Part shown: piece after piece, positions 3,074 to 20,022 of the stretch
How positions within the stretch are numbered: position 1 is the stretch's first letter
How the letters are laid out: every line of letters begins with the position of its first letter
IMG/VR virus record: IMGVR_UViG_3300048042_000010
Coordinates: 1-20,022 of that record
From: a virus
Reading direction: 5' to 3' (one strand)
Length of the DNA stretch: 20,022 bases
Made by a program: the position numbers and the translations under genes
The notes under the pieces: model-generated
The model's database searches: none
Told to the model about the DNA's origin: nothing
The model's input: the letters and a program-made list of their open reading frames with translations, nothing else

Positions 3074-3787
3074 ATGAGTATAGCATTAGACTGCTACCAA
3101 ACTGCACAATTGAGGTGTTGGTTAGAAGCTGACCTTGAACACAAAGAATTAGCTATTAAAACCATTACGCGAACTTTAAGTGATAGCTTACTAGGAATCA
3201 ACAGAGCGTGGTCATTCAATAGATGCCGAACGCCATTGATTGTACCAAATAACATGGTATCACCAGAATATTCTGCAGATGATGTCTGGCAGTTTACTAC
3301 AAGCGCACACACAATGCGTCCAGAAACAACCGCTGGATCATATGCGGTTGCAAGACATATTCTACAAACTTCTAAAGTTAAACTCCCTATTTGCGTTTGG
3401 CAAGAAGGGCCTAGCTTTAGAAAGGAAAGTTCGGATGGTGCTAATGCTGCCAAACTAAGGTATTTCCAATTTGACCAACTTGAATATCAGTGCATCTATT
3501 CAGCTGATACTAAAGCAGATTACAGAGCTACGGTTATGCCTGAATTAGAAACAAAATTAACTTGGTTGGCTGATAGACGATCAAGGGTTGTCGAGTCTGA
3601 TAGACTACCTAAATATTCAGATTCAACAATAGATATAGAAGTGTTGATCCCATCTGATAATGGTGGAAGATGGACTGAGATAGCATCAATTTCTATCAGG
3701 AATGATTTTGGCCCAAATACCAAAGTCCTTGAGATAGCTGTTGGATTAGATAGAATAGTTGATATTTTCAACTTACCACATACATGA
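3074..3787 (+). CDS. Class II aminoacyl-tRNA synthetase catalytic domain, glycyl-type
   Basis: The three class II motifs are in order. Motif 1 is a long helix ending at Pro54/Pro58. Then come RPET (82-85) and KLP (103-105). Motif 2 is FRKE (115-118) followed by LRYFQFDQLEYQ (128-139). Further on are WTEI (200-203) and motif 3 GLDRI (224-228). RPET plus Q-G-x-SFR-E followed by R-x-x-F-x-Q-x-E fits dimeric glycyl-tRNA synthetase best; His or Thr types are less likely. At 237 aa it is about half the usual length: the anticodon-binding domain and insertions are missing. It should form glycyl-adenylate and perhaps charge an acceptor stem, but specificity is inference. The ATG follows AGGAAA. Its TGA overlaps the next ATG (ATGA), so the two are translationally coupled. 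Confidence 0.8.
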   Translation: MSIALDCYQTAQLRCWLEADLEHKELAIKTITRTLSDSLLGINRAWSFNRCRTPLIVPNNMVSPEYSADDVWQFTTSAHTMRPETTAGSYAVARHILQTSKVKLPICVWQEGPSFRKESSDGANAAKLRYFQFDQLEYQCIYSADTKADYRATVMPELETKLTWLADRRSRVVESDRLPKYSDSTIDIEVLIPSDNGGRWTEIASISIRNDFGPNTKVLEIAVGLDRIVDIFNLPHT

Positions 3788-4138: not shown

Positions 4139-4214
4139 GCTTCTGGGGAGGTAAAAGAATCTCTCTGATTTCATACGTCAGTTAAAGTTGGGGCAGAGCC
4201 AACCAGAAGCACCA
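4139..4214 (+). tRNA. tRNA-Met or Ile2 (CAU) with non-canonical T-loop
   Basis: A full 76-nt cloverleaf: acceptor GCTTCTG/CAGAAGC with ACCA, D-stem GAG/CTC, anticodon arm CTGAT-TTCATAC-GTCAG (anticodon CAT), and T-stem GTTGG/CCAAC. The loops are odd. The T-loop is GGCAGAG, not TTCRANY, and the D-loop GTAAAAGAAT lacks the GG that normally docks with it. It has neither the three G-C pairs nor the C1-A72 mismatch of initiators, so it is elongator Met or, if C34 is lysidinylated, Ile. General tRNA finders could miss it. Confidence 0.7.
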
Positions 4215-5392: not shown

Positions 5393-5554
5393 GGGGCTGT
5401 AGCTCAGATGGGAGAGCGATTGCTTTTTCCGTGGCGGGTAACGCTATCAACTAGAAGCATTGCTTCTAGTTGAGTTGTGGGTCCAAAGAGCCTAAAGCTT
5501 CGAGGACCAACCGGCAAGCAATAGGTCGTCGGTTCGATCCCGACCAGCTCCACC
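5393..5554 (+). tRNA. tRNA-Ala(UGC) interrupted by ~87 nt in the anticodon loop
   Basis: The two ends join into a perfect alanine tRNA: acceptor GGGGCTG/CAGCTCC with G3-U70 (the alanine identity pair), D-arm GCTC-AGATGGGA-GAGC, anticodon stem ATTGC/GCAAT, T-arm GTCGG-TTCGATC-CCGAC, and ACCA. The loop reads TTT, then about 87 extra bases (5427-5513), then GCAA, giving TTTGCAA if cut after U34 and after a terminal G. Inside the insertion are a 12-bp hairpin (TCAACTAGAAGC/GCTTCTAGTTGA, 5447-5473) and GGTCC/GGACC. A P1-like pairing of TGCTTT with GAAGCA is possible, with U-G at the junction, but the insertion is far too short for a complete group I intron. Confidence 0.8.
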
Positions 5555-5584
5555 ACTGATTTATATGTATAATTAAAGAATAAT

Positions 5585-7367: not shown

Positions 7368-8069
7368 ATGAAAATAGTTCAGAAAAAGCCTCCTGTAAAA
7401 ACATCAAAAATTGTTCGGGAGGATAGCAAATTTGAATATGGCCAAGACTATGAGGATGATGTATTAGTATCCGATTGGATGCGAGTAAAAACAGATCATT
7501 GGTCTTCTCTTAATTCCTATGATCTCGTTAGGCACTGTGGGTTTGAGATTGGTTATCAAAAATCACATGATTTGATTAACTTTGCCGACGGGAATTACGA
7601 AACCATTTACTATATCGCTTCTCTTTCACACGAAGAAGCTATAAAATGGTTAATGGGACCTATCGCGGTTGAATTAAAAGCCTCTAAGAGAAATCTTAAA
7701 GATTTGATGCCAGTTAGTTATTTGAACCTATTTGTGGATTACTTGTTGAGTGGTAAATTTGACAAAAGCTTTGCGAAGGATATATTTGATGTATATGCCA
7801 CTGCTGTTAAATTTAGAACTGTACCAATAGTTGCTGGTGAAATCATGCTCGACATTATTATTAGTGATCCAAAGTATAGGGTGGCTGGTACTTCTGAAGT
7901 TGACACAGTCATTGATAAGGTTATATCTAATAATCCAGTTCAGGTTGAGAAAGCTAAGGCTGACCATCGTATCATGCATTGGCTAGTTGGTCAATGCATG
8001 AAGGAGTTGAAAGGTAAAGCTTCTGCTCCTGTATTGCTCGAAAAGATCACAAAACTGTTAACAGCTTAA
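7368..8069 (+). CDS. GatB C-terminal-half homologue (GatB/YqeY tRNA-binding domain)
   Basis: Residues about 60-233 match the helical and tail part of GatB, the tRNA-binding subunit of Asp-tRNA(Asn)/Glu-tRNA(Gln) amidotransferase. The segment AIKWLMG (about 92-98) equals the NWLMG helix. MPVSYLNLFVDYLLSGK aligns with the linker domain. VDTVIDKVISNNP, then LVGQCMKELKGKA (about 207-219), matches the YqeY tail signature (NP-x-x-V, LVGQxMKxxKGxA). The GatB kinase/amidotransferase cradle is absent, so it cannot amidate by itself. It may bind tRNA or replace or compete with the host tail. It is last in the operon 6575-8069 and starts directly after the previous TGA. Confidence 0.82.
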   Translation: MKIVQKKPPVKTSKIVREDSKFEYGQDYEDDVLVSDWMRVKTDHWSSLNSYDLVRHCGFEIGYQKSHDLINFADGNYETIYYIASLSHEEAIKWLMGPIAVELKASKRNLKDLMPVSYLNLFVDYLLSGKFDKSFAKDIFDVYATAVKFRTVPIVAGEIMLDIIISDPKYRVAGTSEVDTVIDKVISNNPVQVEKAKADHRIMHWLVGQCMKELKGKASAPVLLEKITKLLTA

Positions 8070-8582: not shown

Positions 8583-8659
8583 CCACTGCGACCCAGCAAG
8601 AGAAGGGGCAGAGCCGATAACTCTGTAGTAGCAAGGAGCGTTACCTTGGCGGTGGACCA
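8583..8659 (+). tRNA. tRNA-Ile(GAU)-like with non-canonical loops
   Basis: All four helices are perfect: acceptor CCACTGC/GCGGTGG with ACCA, D-stem CCC/GGG, anticodon stem CAGAG/CTCTG, T-stem CAAGG/CCTTG. The loops are not. The anticodon loop CCGATAA has C at position 33, the T-loop is AGCGTTA instead of TTCRANY, and the D-loop AGCAAGAGAA has no GG. The 11-mer GGAGCGTTACC around the T-loop recurs in tRNA-Gly(UCC) at 15415-15425. With four intact helices but no standard loop signature, it is probably functional and likely to be missed by covariance models. Confidence 0.65.
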
Positions 8660-14620: not shown

Positions 14621-14718
14621 GCTGGAGTAGCTCAATGGTAGAGTATAACATTGCCTGAAGACATCACGGTGTCTTGAACAATGTTATGACGAGGGTTCGA
14701 TTCCCTCCTCTAGCTCCA
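14621..14718 (+). tRNA. tRNA-Gly(GCC) with 24-nt anticodon-loop insertion
   Basis: Removing 14656-14679 gives a textbook tRNA-Gly: acceptor GCTGGAG/CTCTAGC, D-arm GCTC-AATGGTA-GAGT, anticodon arm TAACA-TTGCCAA-TGTTA (anticodon GCC), T-arm GAGGG-TTCGATT-CCCTC, U73, CCA. The insertion lies just 3' of C36 (the exact cut is ambiguous by one C) and forms AAGACA-TCACGG-TGTCTT. As transcribed, TTG also pairs with CAA, so the unspliced arm is one long stem in which the anticodon cannot read codons. It is unlike any group I or II intron in size. Confidence 0.85.
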
Positions 14719-14735
14719 AAATTTGAGGCACCATA

Positions 14736-14900
14736 ATGACTGTTCAGACTGCTAAGGCAGCAAGTTCTAAAATTAGACCAAGACCTCCAGCAAAGCCAAC
14801 TGATAAACCGTTAGCTTTACCATTAGCAAATAGATACAACATTAAAGCAAGCCAACTTAGAACTCAACAGGTACAACGGTCCGGCGGCCGTGGCAGATAA
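14736..14900 (+). CDS. Small basic Pro-rich protein, 54 aa
   Basis: ATG 14736 behind GAGGCA, stop TAA 14898-14900, placed directly after tRNA-Gly(GCC). Strongly basic, with a Pro-rich disordered segment (IRPRPPAKPTDKPLALPL) and a Gly-Arg tail (RSGGRGR) typical of nucleic-acid-binding tails. Not recognised. It precedes the promoter of the WGR-like gene. Confidence 0.6.
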   Translation: MTVQTAKAASSKIRPRPPAKPTDKPLALPLANRYNIKASQLRTQQVQRSGGRGR

Positions 14901-14913
14901 TTTTATTTTCTGG

Positions 14914-14942
14914 TTGACAGCATAAGCATATGGTGCTAATGT
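14914..14942 (+). promoter_or_regulatory. Sigma70-like promoter
   Basis: TTGACA (14914-14919), a 17-base spacer and TAATGT (14937-14942) preceded by GTGC. It lies 31 bases before the ATG at 14974. Confidence 0.6.
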
Positions 14943-14973
14943 ATCAAAGTTAGAGCAGGCTCAGGAGTTTCAA

Positions 14974-15285
14974 ATGAGCGTTGACGTTGGTTTGATATGG
15001 GCCGGTTGGAATACCGAAGGAAATAGTGATAAGGTTTGGGGCGTCATTAAGCAAGGTGCGGTTGCGCTTCCGCAACGAAATTCAAAGGTTTATGTATTTT
15101 GGGGTGCGCGCGGCAAAAGCATGATGTTCAAAGCCGATACGTATACGTATGAAATCGAAGATTTGATTAGAAAGAAACAGAAGAAGGGTTATAAGGAAAT
15201 TGACTATGCTAAGCTGCTGAAAATTTGGCCAGACTTCGAAGATACCCTTTCACAACGATTTACGTTCTTCCTTTTGAGTCAATAA
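14974..15285 (+). CDS. WGR-domain-like protein, 103 aa
   Basis: The N-terminal ~85 residues resemble a WGR domain, a small nucleic-acid-binding fold known from PARPs and bacterial regulators: a strand pair before VYVFWGARGK (39-48, the WGR-type core), a Phe-containing strand, then a helix and KKGYKEID. It ends with an aromatic helix. A stand-alone WGR-like protein might bind nicked DNA or RNA ends. The ribosome site is CAGGAG; the promoter is at 14914-14942. Higher GC than its neighbours suggests acquisition. Confidence 0.55.
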   Translation: MSVDVGLIWAGWNTEGNSDKVWGVIKQGAVALPQRNSKVYVFWGARGKSMMFKADTYTYEIEDLIRKKQKKGYKEIDYAKLLKIWPDFEDTLSQRFTFFLLSQ

Positions 15286-15300
15286 ATTACAATAAATCAG

Positions 15301-15331
15301 TTGACAAGAGAATAGGTTTGTTGTATAAATA
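15301..15331 (+). promoter_or_regulatory. Overlapping early and late promoters before tRNA-Gly(UCC)
   Basis: TTGACA (15301-15306), a 17-base spacer and TATAAA (15324-15329), which is also the start of an exact TATAAATA (15324-15331). The mature tRNA starts at 15339, so both early and late transcription would begin near its 5' end. Confidence 0.65.
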
Positions 15332-15338
15332 GTAATAT

Positions 15339-15439
15339 GCGGGTGTAACATAGAAGCTAAATGTATCAGTCTTCCTGTGGAGTGCTAGTCACTCTAGAGG
15401 AAACTGAAGAAGTCGGAGCGTTACCGATCACCCGCTCCA
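15339..15439 (+). tRNA. tRNA-Gly(UCC) with 25-nt anticodon-loop insertion
   Basis: Without 15376-15400 it is a complete tRNA: acceptor GCGGGTG/CACCCGC, D-stem ACAT/ATGT, anticodon arm TCAGT-CTTCCAA-ACTGA (anticodon TCC), T-stem GTCGG/CCGAT, U73 and CCA. The insertion again lies right after C36 and folds GAGTG-CTAGT-CACTC, while TTCC pairs with GGAA, sequestering the anticodon. The T-loop is AGCGTTA, identical to that of the tRNA-Ile-like gene at 8583, and the D-loop AGAAGCTAA lacks GG. A second, uninterrupted tRNA-Gly(UCC) follows at 15452. Confidence 0.78.
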
Positions 15440-15451
15440 AATTAAATATGC

Positions 15452-15525
15452 GCAGTGATAGCTCAATGGTAGAGTGGCTGGGTTCCACCTAGTAGACGAT
15501 AATTCGATTTTATCACGCTGCTCCA
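15452..15525 (+). tRNA. tRNA-Gly(UCC), uninterrupted
   Basis: Acceptor GCAGTG/CGCTGC (seventh pair A-A), D-arm GCTC-AATGGTA-GAGT, anticodon arm GCTGG-GTTCCAC-CTAGT (anticodon TCC), T-arm GATAA-TTCGATT-TTATC, U73 and encoded CCA. The loop begins with G32, unusual. It gives the phage a second reader of GGA/GGG codons. Confidence 0.85.
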
Positions 15526-16024: not shown

Positions 16025-16738
16025 TTATATATTATCATGAGCAAGTGATTTTTTAATAATATCAAGTTCTGGCCAATTGGTATCATTTAATTTATTAAAT
16101 ATAGAATCATTTAAAGTAATATCTCCATTTTTCATTTCTATTAAAATATATTTAATAATACTATTTTTACATAAATTTAATAATGCATCTGATGGATGTT
16201 CAATATATCTTATTGAACTTCCATTTTGTTTAACAGCAGCTAATTGTACTTGTTCTGATGGATTTTTGATATAGTCTATTGAATCGCCATTTTGTTCAAC
16301 AGCAGCTAATTGTACTTGTTCAAATGGATTTTTAATAAATCTTATTGAATCGCCATTTTGTTCAACAGCAGCTAATTGTACTTGTTCAGATGGATTTTTA
16401 ATATATCTTATTGAATCGCCATTTTGTTCAACAGCAGCTAATTGTACTTGTTCAGATGGATTTTTAATATAGTCTATTGAACTTCCATTTTGTTTAACCG
16501 CAGCTAATTGTACTTGTTCTGATGGATTTTTGATATAGTCTATTGCATATCCATTTTGTTCAACAGCAGCTAATTGTACTTGTTCAGATGGATTTTTAAT
16601 GTATTCTATTGCATATCCATTTTGTTCAACAGCAGCTAATTGTACTTGTTCAGATGGATTTTTAATGTATTCTATTGCATATCCATTTTCACTAACAGCA
16701 GCTAATTGTACACTGTCAGTGACAGAATTTAATTCCAT
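16025..16738 (-). CDS. DUF4116-like repeat protein, 237 aa, eight 22-residue repeats
   Basis: After a short start come eight consecutive 22-residue repeats of the form VQLAAVxQNG-xxIxYIKNPSEQ, then a ~45-residue non-repetitive tail. The pattern matches DUF4116-type repeats seen in giant viruses, large phages and intracellular bacteria; these form an alpha-helical solenoid that probably binds proteins. The repeats vary only in a few positions (YAIE, SSID, DSIR), so copies have been amplified or homogenised recently. Its reverse-strand promoter TTGACC-N16-TATTAT is at 16770-16797. It is convergent with the tRNA region and could be a host-interaction protein. Confidence 0.82.
   Translation of the reverse strand: MELNSVTDSVQLAAVSENGYAIEYIKNPSEQVQLAAVEQNGYAIEYIKNPSEQVQLAAVEQNGYAIDYIKNPSEQVQLAAVKQNGSSIDYIKNPSEQVQLAAVEQNGDSIRYIKNPSEQVQLAAVEQNGDSIRFIKNPFEQVQLAAVEQNGDSIDYIKNPSEQVQLAAVKQNGSSIRYIEHPSDALLNLCKNSIIKYILIEMKNGDITLNDSIFNKLNDTNWPELDIIKKSLAHDNI
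16190..16720 (-). repeat. Eight tandem 66-bp coding repeats
   Basis: Direct repeats of 66 bp encoding the 22-residue units. Long blocks such as CAGCAGCTAATTGTACTTG are identical in most copies. High DNA identity makes copy number likely to change by slippage or recombination. Confidence 0.85.
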
Positions 16739-16769
16739 TTTAACTCTTTTACTTCTTTATTATAATCCT

Positions 16770-16797
16770 ATAATAGCATCTTTAGAAAAAAGGTCAA
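16770..16797 (-). promoter_or_regulatory. Reverse-strand sigma70-like promoter
   Basis: On the reverse strand TTGACC (16797-16792), 16 bases, TATTAT (16775-16770) preceded by ATGC. It drives the repeat-protein gene. Confidence 0.65.
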
Positions 16798-16803
16798 CCA
16801 AAA

Positions 16804-16971
16804 TCAGCACCAAACGATGGTGATATTCTCATGGGCGACCAATTCAGCATCAGGCTTGCCAGTATCTGACAAATCACGCAATGCACGAGCACATAGCCAA
16901 TAAATCCCACATTCTGTCTGCAATTCCTTGAACGGGACACCGTATTCAGTTTCGATTTGTTCAATGTACAT
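16804..16971 (-). CDS. Hypothetical protein, 55 aa
   Basis: Starts at the ATG at 16971 (reverse strand) behind GAGGTG; a longer frame reaching 17010 has no ribosome site and would overlap the upstream gene. An acidic helical protein (YIEQIETEYGVPFKELQ) with two Cys in CGIYWLCAR. Not recognised. Second gene of a two-gene reverse operon with 16991-17215. Confidence 0.65.
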   Translation of the reverse strand: MYIEQIETEYGVPFKELQTECGIYWLCARALRDLSDTGKPDAELVAHENITIVWC

Positions 16972-16990
16972 TTTACACCTCGTTAATAGA

Positions 16991-17215
16991 CTATCCCAGG
17001 CAAACGTCACCGTTCACGTCAACATACCCAAAATTATTAAGATACATTTCTAGTTCTCTGGGAGTAGTTGAATCAACGAAGCTGCTTAGGAAGAATGTAG
17101 CTTCAGCTTTTGTGATTTTGACATTGTGTTCAGACACTCCAAACCGTACCTTAATAAATACTCGCTTAGCTGATTTTACAGCTTTACAGGCCTGAGGAAT
17201 GGTCAAAAGTTCCAT
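16991..17215 (-). CDS. Hypothetical protein, 74 aa
   Basis: First gene of the reverse operon, starting 30 bases after the -10 box (promoter 17245-17272). Basic N-terminal half (ACKAVKSAKRVFIKVRFG) with strand-like segments, acidic C-terminus. Function unknown. Its 5' leader begins close to the divergent virion operon. Confidence 0.7.
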   Translation of the reverse strand: MELLTIPQACKAVKSAKRVFIKVRFGVSEHNVKITKAEATFFLSSFVDSTTPRELEMYLNNFGYVDVNGDVCLG

Positions 17216-17244
17216 ATTTGATCTTCCCTAATTTCTATTAGCGA

Positions 17245-17272
17245 TAATAGCATATCTGTCCAAAAGGTCAAC
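17245..17272 (-). promoter_or_regulatory. Reverse-strand sigma70-like promoter
   Basis: TTGACC (17272-17267), 16 bases, TATTAT (17250-17245) preceded by ATGC, nearly the same as the promoter at 16770-16797. Confidence 0.7.
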
Positions 17273-17293
17273 CGAAATATCTTAAATTGTCAA

Positions 17294-17301
17294 CATAAAT
17301 A
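17294..17301 (+). promoter_or_regulatory. Late promoter variant CATAAATA
   Basis: One base from TATAAATA, 25 bases before the first virion gene at 17326. Late control is expected for structural genes. Confidence 0.55.
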
Positions 17302-17325
17302 ATATCAACAGAATAGGATCGTATT

Positions 17326-18459
17326 ATGCCACCACTAGTCCTTTGGAAGGGCGTCAATGTTAGAACCAATGATTACAAATTTGTTGATCGAACAGTTGGC
17401 GAGTATTTTAAAATAAGCGGTACTGAAATATGGGTACACAAGTATCTAGGACCAGTAGACGCACCAAAATCAAAGGATGCCACCAAACCAGGTGGTGATG
17501 GATTTAATGCAACCGACGCACCAGAATTGGGCATACAGGATGTATTAAATATGGAAATTAGAGATCGAAAATATGATCCGGATATCTATAGCCTCAAGGG
17601 TCACTACCAAGTAAGCGATACAGAATTTGATTTGAGACAGTTTGGATTATTCTTAAGTAACGATACAATATTCATAACGTTTCATCTTAATGATATGGTT
17701 AACAGTATTGGTCGTACATTAATGAGTGGTGATGTTGTCGAAATATGTCACAGGCGAGATGATCTGGTTATTGGTCAGGATGAAAGTATTAGTAAATTTT
17801 ATGTAATACAAGAAGGTACAAGACCTGCAGAAGGTTGGGGTCCGACATGGTGGTCACATATGTGGAGAATCAAATGTACACCAATTACTGATAGTCAAGA
17901 ATATAAAGGCATTCTTAATCTACCTGCAACTGATGTTAACGGTGATCTGATACCAAACGGAAATAGCAGTAATGTGATTACATTAAGTGATTTAATAAGC
18001 AATTATAATAAAGAAATTGAAATTACTGAAAGAGGGTTAGAACAAGCTCATAGAGAAGTTCCATTCTTAAACTTACAATCTACTCATTTTTACTTTTATC
18101 CTACCAATCATGATCCACAAATTAGTTTGTTCGTAAGTGACAATATACCACCAGATGGTAGTAAACCTGTCCCATGCGGTACTACATTTCCCACACAGCC
18201 ATTAATAGGTGATTATTTTATTAGAACTGACTATCTCCCAGCTATGTTGTTTAAGCGTGAAGTTGGGCCACAAACTGGTAATGGTATTTGGGTACGTACA
18301 CAAGTAAACTGGAGAACAAGTTGGACACCTGCTAATAAACTATTAAGTACGTTTATAAATAATAACAATAAAACAACGCTCAATGATGGCAGCGTAGTGC
18401 CAGAAAGACAAAATATCAGGGATCTAATGAAAGCCAAACTAGATCCAGATATAATTTAA
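17326..18459 (+). CDS. Neck protein, T4 gp14-like, 377 aa
   Basis: Probable head-tail connector (neck) protein. Residues about 75-195 carry the gp14-type pattern: a Lys-Pro-Asp rich segment, an FGLFLSNDTIFITF strand pair, then GDVVEICHRRDDL, FYVIQEG and WRIKCTPI, matching the T4 sequence of GDLIYFPxxxxLFEI followed by an aromatic strand. It is longer than T4 gp14 (256 aa) because of a C-terminal extension. First of the late virion operon, ten bases before the GH19 gene; the expected gp15 homologue follows, which supports the call. Ribosome site AGGA, late promoter variant at 17294. Confidence 0.65.
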   Translation: MPPLVLWKGVNVRTNDYKFVDRTVGEYFKISGTEIWVHKYLGPVDAPKSKDATKPGGDGFNATDAPELGIQDVLNMEIRDRKYDPDIYSLKGHYQVSDTEFDLRQFGLFLSNDTIFITFHLNDMVNSIGRTLMSGDVVEICHRRDDLVIGQDESISKFYVIQEGTRPAEGWGPTWWSHMWRIKCTPITDSQEYKGILNLPATDVNGDLIPNGNSSNVITLSDLISNYNKEIEITERGLEQAHREVPFLNLQSTHFYFYPTNHDPQISLFVSDNIPPDGSKPVPCGTTFPTQPLIGDYFIRTDYLPAMLFKREVGPQTGNGIWVRTQVNWRTSWTPANKLLSTFINNNNKTTLNDGSVVPERQNIRDLMKAKLDPDII

Positions 18460-18468
18460 GGAATTGTC

Positions 18469-19116
18469 ATGACAGGATTTGATTTTAATTTTACAGTTAC
18501 ACAGTTATCACAAGTGATGCCAGGTATAAAAGATGCAGAAGATTGGTTTACAGCCTTGAGTAACTTGCTACCAACTTTTGAAATCACTAATGCTAAAAGA
18601 ATTGCAATGTTTCTTGCAATGACTGGCCACGAAAGTGGAAATTTCTCTGTATTAATAGAAGACCTGAATTACAGTGCTGCCGGACTTGCTGCGACATGGC
18701 CAAGTGAGTTTAAGACTAATAACCCAGATGATTATGCACGTCAGCCAGAAAAGATTGCCAATTTAGTTTATGCTAATCGTATGGGCAATGGCAATACAGC
18801 AAGTGGAGACGGCTGGAACTTCCGTGGGCGTGGCCTTATACAGTTAACAGGTAAAGAAAATTATAGCGTATGTAGTACATCAATTTATGGTGATGCAAGA
18901 TTACTAAGTACTCCAGAATTATTATTAACTATGGACGGTGCAATAGCATCGGCTTGTTGGTTTTGGAATTTACACAACTTAAATCCACTTAGTGATGACG
19001 GAAATATTAAGCAAGTTAGACTTATAGCCAATGGTGGCTATATTGGTCTGGCAGATTGTGAAACAAGATATGCTAAGGCATTAAGTGTTTTTGGTATCGA
19101 TGGGATTATAAGTTAA
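18469..19116 (+). CDS. GH19 chitinase-like peptidoglycan hydrolase, 215 aa
   Basis: A glycoside hydrolase family 19 domain that cleaves peptidoglycan (endolysin type). Key features are FLAMTGHESGNF with catalytic Glu55, the RGRGLIQLTGKENY core (119-132), WFWN, and a C-terminal NGGYIGLADCETRY. It has neither a signal peptide nor a membrane segment. In phages this fold usually serves as endolysin, but here it sits between gp14-like and gp15-like tail-completion genes in a late operon, so it could be a virion-borne wall hydrolase used at entry. The frame starts ten bases after the neck gene and abuts the next ATG. Confidence 0.85.
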   Translation: MTGFDFNFTVTQLSQVMPGIKDAEDWFTALSNLLPTFEITNAKRIAMFLAMTGHESGNFSVLIEDLNYSAAGLAATWPSEFKTNNPDDYARQPEKIANLVYANRMGNGNTASGDGWNFRGRGLIQLTGKENYSVCSTSIYGDARLLSTPELLLTMDGAIASACWFWNLHNLNPLSDDGNIKQVRLIANGGYIGLADCETRYAKALSVFGIDGIIS

Positions 19117-20022
19117 ATGGAATTTTGGTATACAGAACAATTACGTAATTATCGATTACAGTTTCAACGAGCATTTTCTGAATTCTATGTACAATATGGA
19201 CCAGATGAAAAAGGTGAAACTACATTAAGCAAAGTTCCTTGCCGTTATGGTGATCCAACAAGACTAGCTGAAATTGTTATAAACGGTAATTCTGAAAACA
19301 AAATACCACCAGTACCGTTTATAACGTATCATATCCAATCATTGAACATGACTCCCGAACGTAGGCAAGATCCATATTTTGTTGGAAAATATCATGCCAA
19401 TGAAAGATTGTATAACGAAGAAACACAGCATTATCTGCAGGCCGTAGGAAATAGGTACACAATTGAACGTTACATGCCTGTTCCGTATGATTTGTTTATA
19501 GCGTTAGATATTTGGTCAAACAATCTCCAGATTAAAGATCAAATATTAGAACAAATACTAATGCTATTTAATCCAAGTATTGTAATACAAACCAGCAATA
19601 ATGTATTCGATTGGACAAGTATTAGTTTAATAGAACAAACAGAAGTAGCATGGAGCAGTATAAGCATTCCCATTGGCATTGATAATCCAATAGATATTAC
19701 TACTATAACATATAAAATACCTATTTGGATAAATCCGCCAGCTAAAGTAAAAGAACAGGTGCTAATTGAAGAAATTATAACAAATATAATGCACGGTATT
19801 AAAGAATATCCCGAACAATGGGGGTGGAGCGAATATGAGGAATTTGGTAAGCGTTATACTACTCCAGGTGACAACCATATAAGACTAAGATTAGACGGTC
19901 CAGAATATCATATTAGCTTAAATACGTCAGCTGGTACACCGGTATCAGCAACGGTAGTTCCTACGATTAACATAACCAGTAATAATCCTACATTAGTATC
20001 TGGTACAAGTTTTAGTTTCAAT
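19117..20022 (+). CDS. Tail sheath stabiliser, T4 gp15-like (5' part, 302 codons)
   Basis: Opens immediately after the GH19 stop (TAAATG) and runs off the window. The first ~220 residues follow T4 gp15: an aromatic N-terminus (MEFWYTEQLRNYR...AFSEFYVQYG), a strand giving VPCRYGDPTR, PFITYHIQSL, then an RYMPVPYDLFIALDIWSNN segment, ILEQILMLFNPS and a late WxxxxxPI strand. gp15 caps the tail tube and sheath and joins them to the neck. After about residue 275 the sequence becomes Thr/Ser/Asn-rich (TINITSNNPTLVSGTSF), suggesting a fused surface domain beyond gp15's usual length. Confidence 0.75.
   Translation, partial: MEFWYTEQLRNYRLQFQRAFSEFYVQYGPDEKGETTLSKVPCRYGDPTRLAEIVINGNSENKIPPVPFITYHIQSLNMTPERRQDPYFVGKYHANERLYNEETQHYLQAVGNRYTIERYMPVPYDLFIALDIWSNNLQIKDQILEQILMLFNPSIVIQTSNNVFDWTSISLIEQTEVAWSSISIPIGIDNPIDITTITYKIPIWINPPAKVKEQVLIEEIITNIMHGIKEYPEQWGWSEYEEFGKRYTTPGDNHIRLRLDGPEYHISLNTSAGTPVSATVVPTINITSNNPTLVSGTSFSFN

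Follow-up and report, generated by a model that had tools for sequence, protein, structure and literature searches.

A conserved 24-nt hairpin in the anticodon loop of jumbo-phage tRNA-Gly genes is a candidate mini-intron

Bacteria are not known to splice their tRNAs by means other than self-splicing group I or group II introns. Group I introns also occur in the tRNA anticodon loops of bacteria and phages, but they measure about 200 nt or more and have a catalytic core. The tRNA introns of archaea and eukaryotes are small, lie in the anticodon loop at the canonical position 37/38, mask the anticodon and depend on protein enzymes for their removal, the cut being made by EndA/TSEN endonucleases; in archaea, the splice sites lie in a bulge-helix-bulge (BHB) motif, in which two 3-nt bulges on opposite strands are separated by a 4-bp helix. 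Phage T4 provides a further point of reference, since an anticodon-loop nick made by PrrC is sealed there by the ligase Rnl1 together with Pnkp. Introns in phage tRNAs are not in themselves new, as tRNAs with conserved 'enigmatic introns', their mechanism left open, are described for the Lak megaphages in the tRNA passages of a 2019 report (Nat Microbiol 2019, PMC6784885).

The DNA analysed here (the window) is a complete viral record of 20,022 bp with a scattered set of tRNA genes. Its structural protein is homologous to a protein of the metagenomic relative G005 (IMG/VR 3300010158_000177), and the nearest isolates found with the latter as query are Sinorhizobium phage Phosso, Agrobacterium phage Atu_ph07, Salicola phage SCTP-2 and Pseudomonas phage PA5oct, all of them jumbo phages. 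An earlier note on this DNA had referred to T4-like phages, which is too simple; judged by its structural protein, the window comes from a jumbo phage related to Atu_ph07, Phosso and SCTP-2. On the + strand it encodes a stand-alone 237-aa catalytic core of the glycyl-tRNA synthetase type (3074–3787), which has no close relative in IMG/VR and co-occurs with three tRNA-Gly genes, and a protein with a GatB/YqeY tail domain, a tRNA-binding domain of tRNA amidotransferase (7368–8069). The open reading frame at 16025–16738 consists of near-identical tandem DUF4116 repeats, with seven matched stretches. A tRNA-Phe-like gene (1922–2071) has an additional structured stretch in its variable region, and ARAGORN assigns it a 57-nt insert. 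Two tRNA-like cloverleafs with 3' CCA in the window (4139–4214 and 8583–8659) and one in Phosso (423686–423760) have non-canonical D- and T-loops, the latter reading GGCAGAG and AGCGTTA in the window and GTCAGAA in Phosso, and an Ile(GAU)-type loop, CCGATAA, is common to the cloverleafs of both phages.

The tRNA-Gly(GCC) gene lies on the + strand and is composed of a 5' exon (14621–14655) ending at the anticodon G34 C35 C36, a 24-nt insert (14656–14679; TGAAGACATCACGGTGTCTTGAAC) between C36 and A37, and a 3' exon (14680–14718) ending in U73-CCA. With introns disallowed, ARAGORN fails to recognise the unspliced gene as tRNA-Gly; once the 24 nt are removed, tRNA-Gly(gcc) is called at full score, with a standard cloverleaf and the glycine identity elements in place. 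ARAGORN's own reading of the gene, tRNA-Val(aac), was rejected because insert removal restores the glycine loop TTGCCAA, which matches that of relatives. RNAfold predicts the structure (.(((((((....))))))).).. for the insert: a U1-A22 pair, a G2.G21 mismatch, 7 bp, a CACG loop of the YNMG type and a 2-nt 3' tail, A23 C24.

The second insert-bearing gene, a tRNA-Gly(UCC)-like gene on the same strand, comprises a 5' exon (15339–15375), a 25-nt insert (15376–15400; TGTGGAGTGCTAGTCACTCTAGAGG) between C36 and base 37, and a 3' exon (15401–15439) ending in U73-CCA. The two inserts differ in sequence but share one topology, the 25-nt form folding as (.(((((((.....))))))).).. with a 5-nt instead of a 4-nt loop and with GG as its 2-nt 3' tail. 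The earlier note had placed both insertions at this one site 3' of the anticodon, with exact coordinates, and had described them as short hairpins that let anticodon bases pair in the unspliced RNA, all of which is borne out: G34 pairs with insert base Y24 in Gly(GCC), and in Gly(UCC) pairing takes up the entire anticodon, U34, C35 and C36. Its statement that both become perfect tRNAs on removal holds for Gly(GCC) and not for Gly(UCC), which is called Gly(tcc) at the relaxed (90%) threshold only, because its D-loop (AGAAGCTAA, without the usual GG) and its T-loop (AGCGTTA) are non-canonical. Glycine identity in tRNA is set by U73, G1-C72, C2-G71, C35 and C36, and the insert-bearing Gly(UCC) copy retains them all, as do the five Gly(GCC) genes described below. 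An uninterrupted tRNA-Gly(UCC) follows 12 nt downstream (15452–15525, + strand), so the insert-bearing copy may be spare or specialised, and on its own it could be non-functional. A pattern scan found no Gly(UCC) with an anticodon-loop insert in other phages. What the pattern matched instead were tRNA-Gly(UCC) genes of many large phages (L269–L285, all but L278), which have a long variable loop with a conserved GGCGAATAGTT(T/C)AC.

A consensus-free cloverleaf scan of the window recovered both tRNA-Gly genes on the + strand and nothing on the minus strand, in 10 shuffles of the window or in shuffles of its relatives. Taken alone, the hairpins are only mildly unusual: when each insert was shuffled 5000 times, folds just as good arose 105 times for the 24-nt form and 133 times for the 25-nt form. 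Their significance lies in conservation and covariation among relatives. A search of IMG/VR for tRNA-Gly(GCC) that allowed inserts of about 9–40 nt returned, among true tRNA-Gly(GCC) genes, the 24-nt form only, the remaining stretches not being intron-bearing genes of this kind. The form occurs at the same site in four further jumbo-phage lineages: G001 (IMGVR_UViG_3300025357_000616) and G002 (3300025410_000672), which are one and the same phage or very close relatives, G003 (3300006128_000663), G004 (3300025723_000191) and G005. All of these records are metagenomic contigs, mostly fragments, and the family is small (n=5 sequences). Searches for the same insert under other anticodons found it in Gly(GCC) only, one further match being due to chance, and 9 matches across the genomes of 84,980 bacterial species included no tRNA gene.

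The five anticodon arms align without gaps, and 97.5% of paired cells in the alignment are complementary, a value reached by none of 500 shuffles and compared with 34–51% in slid controls. Both sides have changed in 8 of 16 pairs, in a set that amounts to about four independent lines because G004 and G005 are close kin. The insert loop is always of the YNMG type (CACG, CAAG or UAAG), and a covariance model (R1) trained on the four other lineages only places the window gene at the top of all tRNAs in 49 records.

Uninterrupted tRNA-Gly(GCC) genes are present in Rhodobacter phage RcXuper, Atu_ph07, Phosso, G022 and G023, and the comparison with relatives lacking insertions that the earlier note had proposed shows an exact fit of the exons, the exon boundary of the window gene matching theirs. 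Without its insert, the G005 gene is 93% identical to that of RcXuper, and the two differ in length by exactly 24 nt. The insert ends in C in the window and in U in G001 and G003–G005, so that outside the window the boundary cannot slide without a change of anticodon. In a tree of the structural protein, the window stands apart from G004/G005, and the intronless G022 is sister to the latter, which implies at least two gains or losses; such a patchy distribution counts against an intron.

The earlier note had also suggested a phage RNA ligase and kinase as the joining machinery, and here the relatives give a divided answer. In G005, an Rnl1 homologue (16702–17961; TIGR02308, 2.8e-47; phrog_562, 6.5e-74), a kinase (18001–18477) and a phosphatase (19158–19607; phrog_505) make up a T4-type set at 16.7–19.6 kb, about 4–7 kb from the tRNA genes at 23.4–31.8 kb. 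The full set was found in G005 only among the intron-bearing contigs, the others being partial; no ligase was matched in the window, G003 or G004, while the phosphatase gene lies close to the contig end in G002. Searches for the splicing endonuclease domain PF01974 gave no match in 10 records, the intron-bearing contigs being mostly partial, and detected 4 of 4 archaeal controls; RtcB was not found in G000–G005. No phage-encoded RNase III was found either, so that RNase III, if involved, would have to come from the host.

We consider it probable that the inserts are tRNA introns, excised as a hairpin with a 2-nt 3' overhang by a staggered cut and followed by ligation of the exons. In the predicted precursor, the anticodon stem would extend through U32-A38, U33-A37 and G34-Y24, with C35 and C36 facing A23 and the insert helix beyond, and such an extension through the loop would leave the RNA unable to decode. 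An endonuclease may then make two cuts on opposite strands, one following C36 and the other preceding A37, which would free a 24–25-nt hairpin with a 2-nt 3' overhang from either precursor. Since such an overhang has the geometry of a double-strand cut, the strongest candidate for the nuclease would be a double-strand RNase of the host, for instance RNase III. RNase III leaves 3'-OH and 5'-phosphate ends, which are direct substrates of T4 RNA ligase 1; a phage ligase of the T4-Rnl1 type could thus seal the anticodon-loop nick, with the 5' kinase and 3' phosphatase acting if the ends need healing. Two features weigh against this route: a stem of 15–17 bp is short for RNase III, and the cut region of Gly(GCC) is an asymmetric internal loop and no plain duplex.

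At least two further classes of small tRNA inserts exist in the same phage group. The tRNA-Ala gene of the window (5393–5555, + strand) has an 87-nt insert in its anticodon loop (5426–5512), and TTTCCGTGGCGGGTAA, AGCCTAAAGCT and CCAA recur in the inserts of other tRNAs, one Thr/Lys-like from L266/L267 and one from G023. Members of the class (window 5426–5512, L266:3244–3406 and L250:9172–9335) sit in three different tRNAs and have 16 and 11 invariant bases and, in an alignment of three sequences only, covarying helices; the class has no Rfam match and may represent a new kind of small intron, either self-splicing or processed. The second class comprises insert-bearing Lys- and Asn-like tRNAs of Atu_ph07 (MF403008, 68156–68280 and 323904–324023) and a tRNA-Asn of SCTP-2 (MF360958, 298729–298850), with minihelix-like inserts of 45–48 nt that contain a T-arm-like hairpin and whose last bases, ahead of TAA, are AAMAG. 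Excision of these by RNase P and RNase Z is attractive on anatomical grounds and was not adopted, because the predicted exon ends leave extra loop bases. Atu_ph07 was reported to be without tRNA-Asn (PMC6102473), and the tRNA body of a gene that ARAGORN labels Tyr reads Asn(GUU) once its small insert is removed; together with the SCTP-2 gene, this suggests that Atu_ph07 has a tRNA-Asn(GUU) after all. Both classes make it likelier that this phage group removes inserts from its tRNAs.

The rival to excision that survives best, though still unlikely, is that the insert is never removed and that the tRNA-Gly body, with its long and stable anticodon-arm hairpin, is an RNA that takes no part in decoding; it might, for instance, serve as a decoy or sponge that draws off host anticodon nucleases or a regulator that uses glycyl-tRNA. 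This would explain why the hairpin structure is conserved, why the insert is more alike between the window and G001 (21/24, counted by eye) than the exons are (73%), why the unspliced RNA has a very stable fold (z about -4) and why an intact Gly(UCC) accompanies the interrupted one. It does not account for the decoding features that persist: anticodon GCC, U33, A37, A38, U73 and CCA are conserved in 5/5 Gly(GCC) genes, exact removal of the insert always restores a standard 7-nt loop, and the insert-bearing gene is the sole tRNA-Gly found in G004 and G005, beside near-full sets of 16 and 21 tRNA genes, respectively.

Self-removal, by a minimal RNA activity or a phage RNA acting in trans and with no dedicated protein nuclease, is improbable. 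The strongly conserved loop and tail would fit, as would the conserved cores of other insert classes (16 invariant nt in the 87-nt class), but the window matches no known ribozyme family, the insert has neither the terminal G nor the preceding U of group I, and at 24 nt it is shorter than any self-cleaving ribozyme known to us. Decayed or mis-assembled pseudogenes are slightly more improbable still. The Gly(UCC) gene, with its odd loops and its complete copy downstream, would suit such an origin; for Gly(GCC), where the earlier note had asked about decay in relatives, the opposite is seen, with intact tRNA bodies, an insert that keeps its length and site across five phages of separate metagenomic origin, compensatory changes, and a structure-only scan free of chance hits. 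Pseudogenes and assembly artefacts were rejected for Gly(GCC) on this conservation and covariation, and by the sequences compared here its insert is not decay. An archaeal- or eukaryotic-type intron, cut by an EndA/TSEN-like endonuclease at a relaxed BHB, fits the size range, the loop and the helix–internal loop–helix architecture, but is hardly credible, because the two cut sites share a single small internal loop, where a BHB would have two bulges around a central helix, and lie at position 36/37 instead of 37/38, and because neither PF01974 nor RtcB was found in the searches described above.

Excision as mini-introns thus remains the preferred reading, and we see about an even chance that these phages run their own tRNA splicing, in which structured mini-introns of 24–25 nt at position 36/37 would be removed by staggered cuts and the exons sealed by phage tRNA repair. 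If true, it would mark the first case of tRNA splicing without a ribozyme in a bacterial setting, and these introns would be one among several such classes in the phage group; a conserved, covarying 24-nt phage tRNA-Gly intron would imply cut-and-join splicing of tRNAs in bacterial cells. Some 'missing' jumbo-phage tRNAs may also be explained, because standard tRNA finders overlook insert-bearing genes.

The 24-nt hairpin matches no known intron type of bacteria, archaea or eukaryotes, in keeping with the earlier note, as it fails the tested features of group I, group II and BHB introns. Unlike a group I intron, it has no core, follows C36 instead of U at its 5' site and ends in C or U instead of G; a 278-nt insert in tRNA-Leu(UAA) of Atu_ph07, detected by ARAGORN, looks group I-like by eye. 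A group II intron, which would have a domain V and the size of a ribozyme, is excluded by size, and Rfam matches no family except tRNA at the tRNA-Gly loci. Folds and pair counts give one 2x1 (or 3x2) internal loop in place of a BHB. The Lak phages resemble this group in being jumbo phages with large tRNA sets, in which some tRNAs are interrupted, and the tRNA passages of that report (PMC6784885) place introns in tRNAs that include Tyr(GTA) and Thr(TGT), a tRNA being predicted within one of these introns, with no 24-nt covarying tRNA-Gly hairpin among those described, a distinction by description only. Closest in its enzymes is the T4 system, whose Rnl1 and Pnkp have homologues in G005; T4 repairs a cut inflicted by the host, whereas the tRNA-Gly inserts would be excised by two cuts from the phage's own transcripts, and the widespread phage RNA ligases and kinases may thus have a constructive role besides repair.
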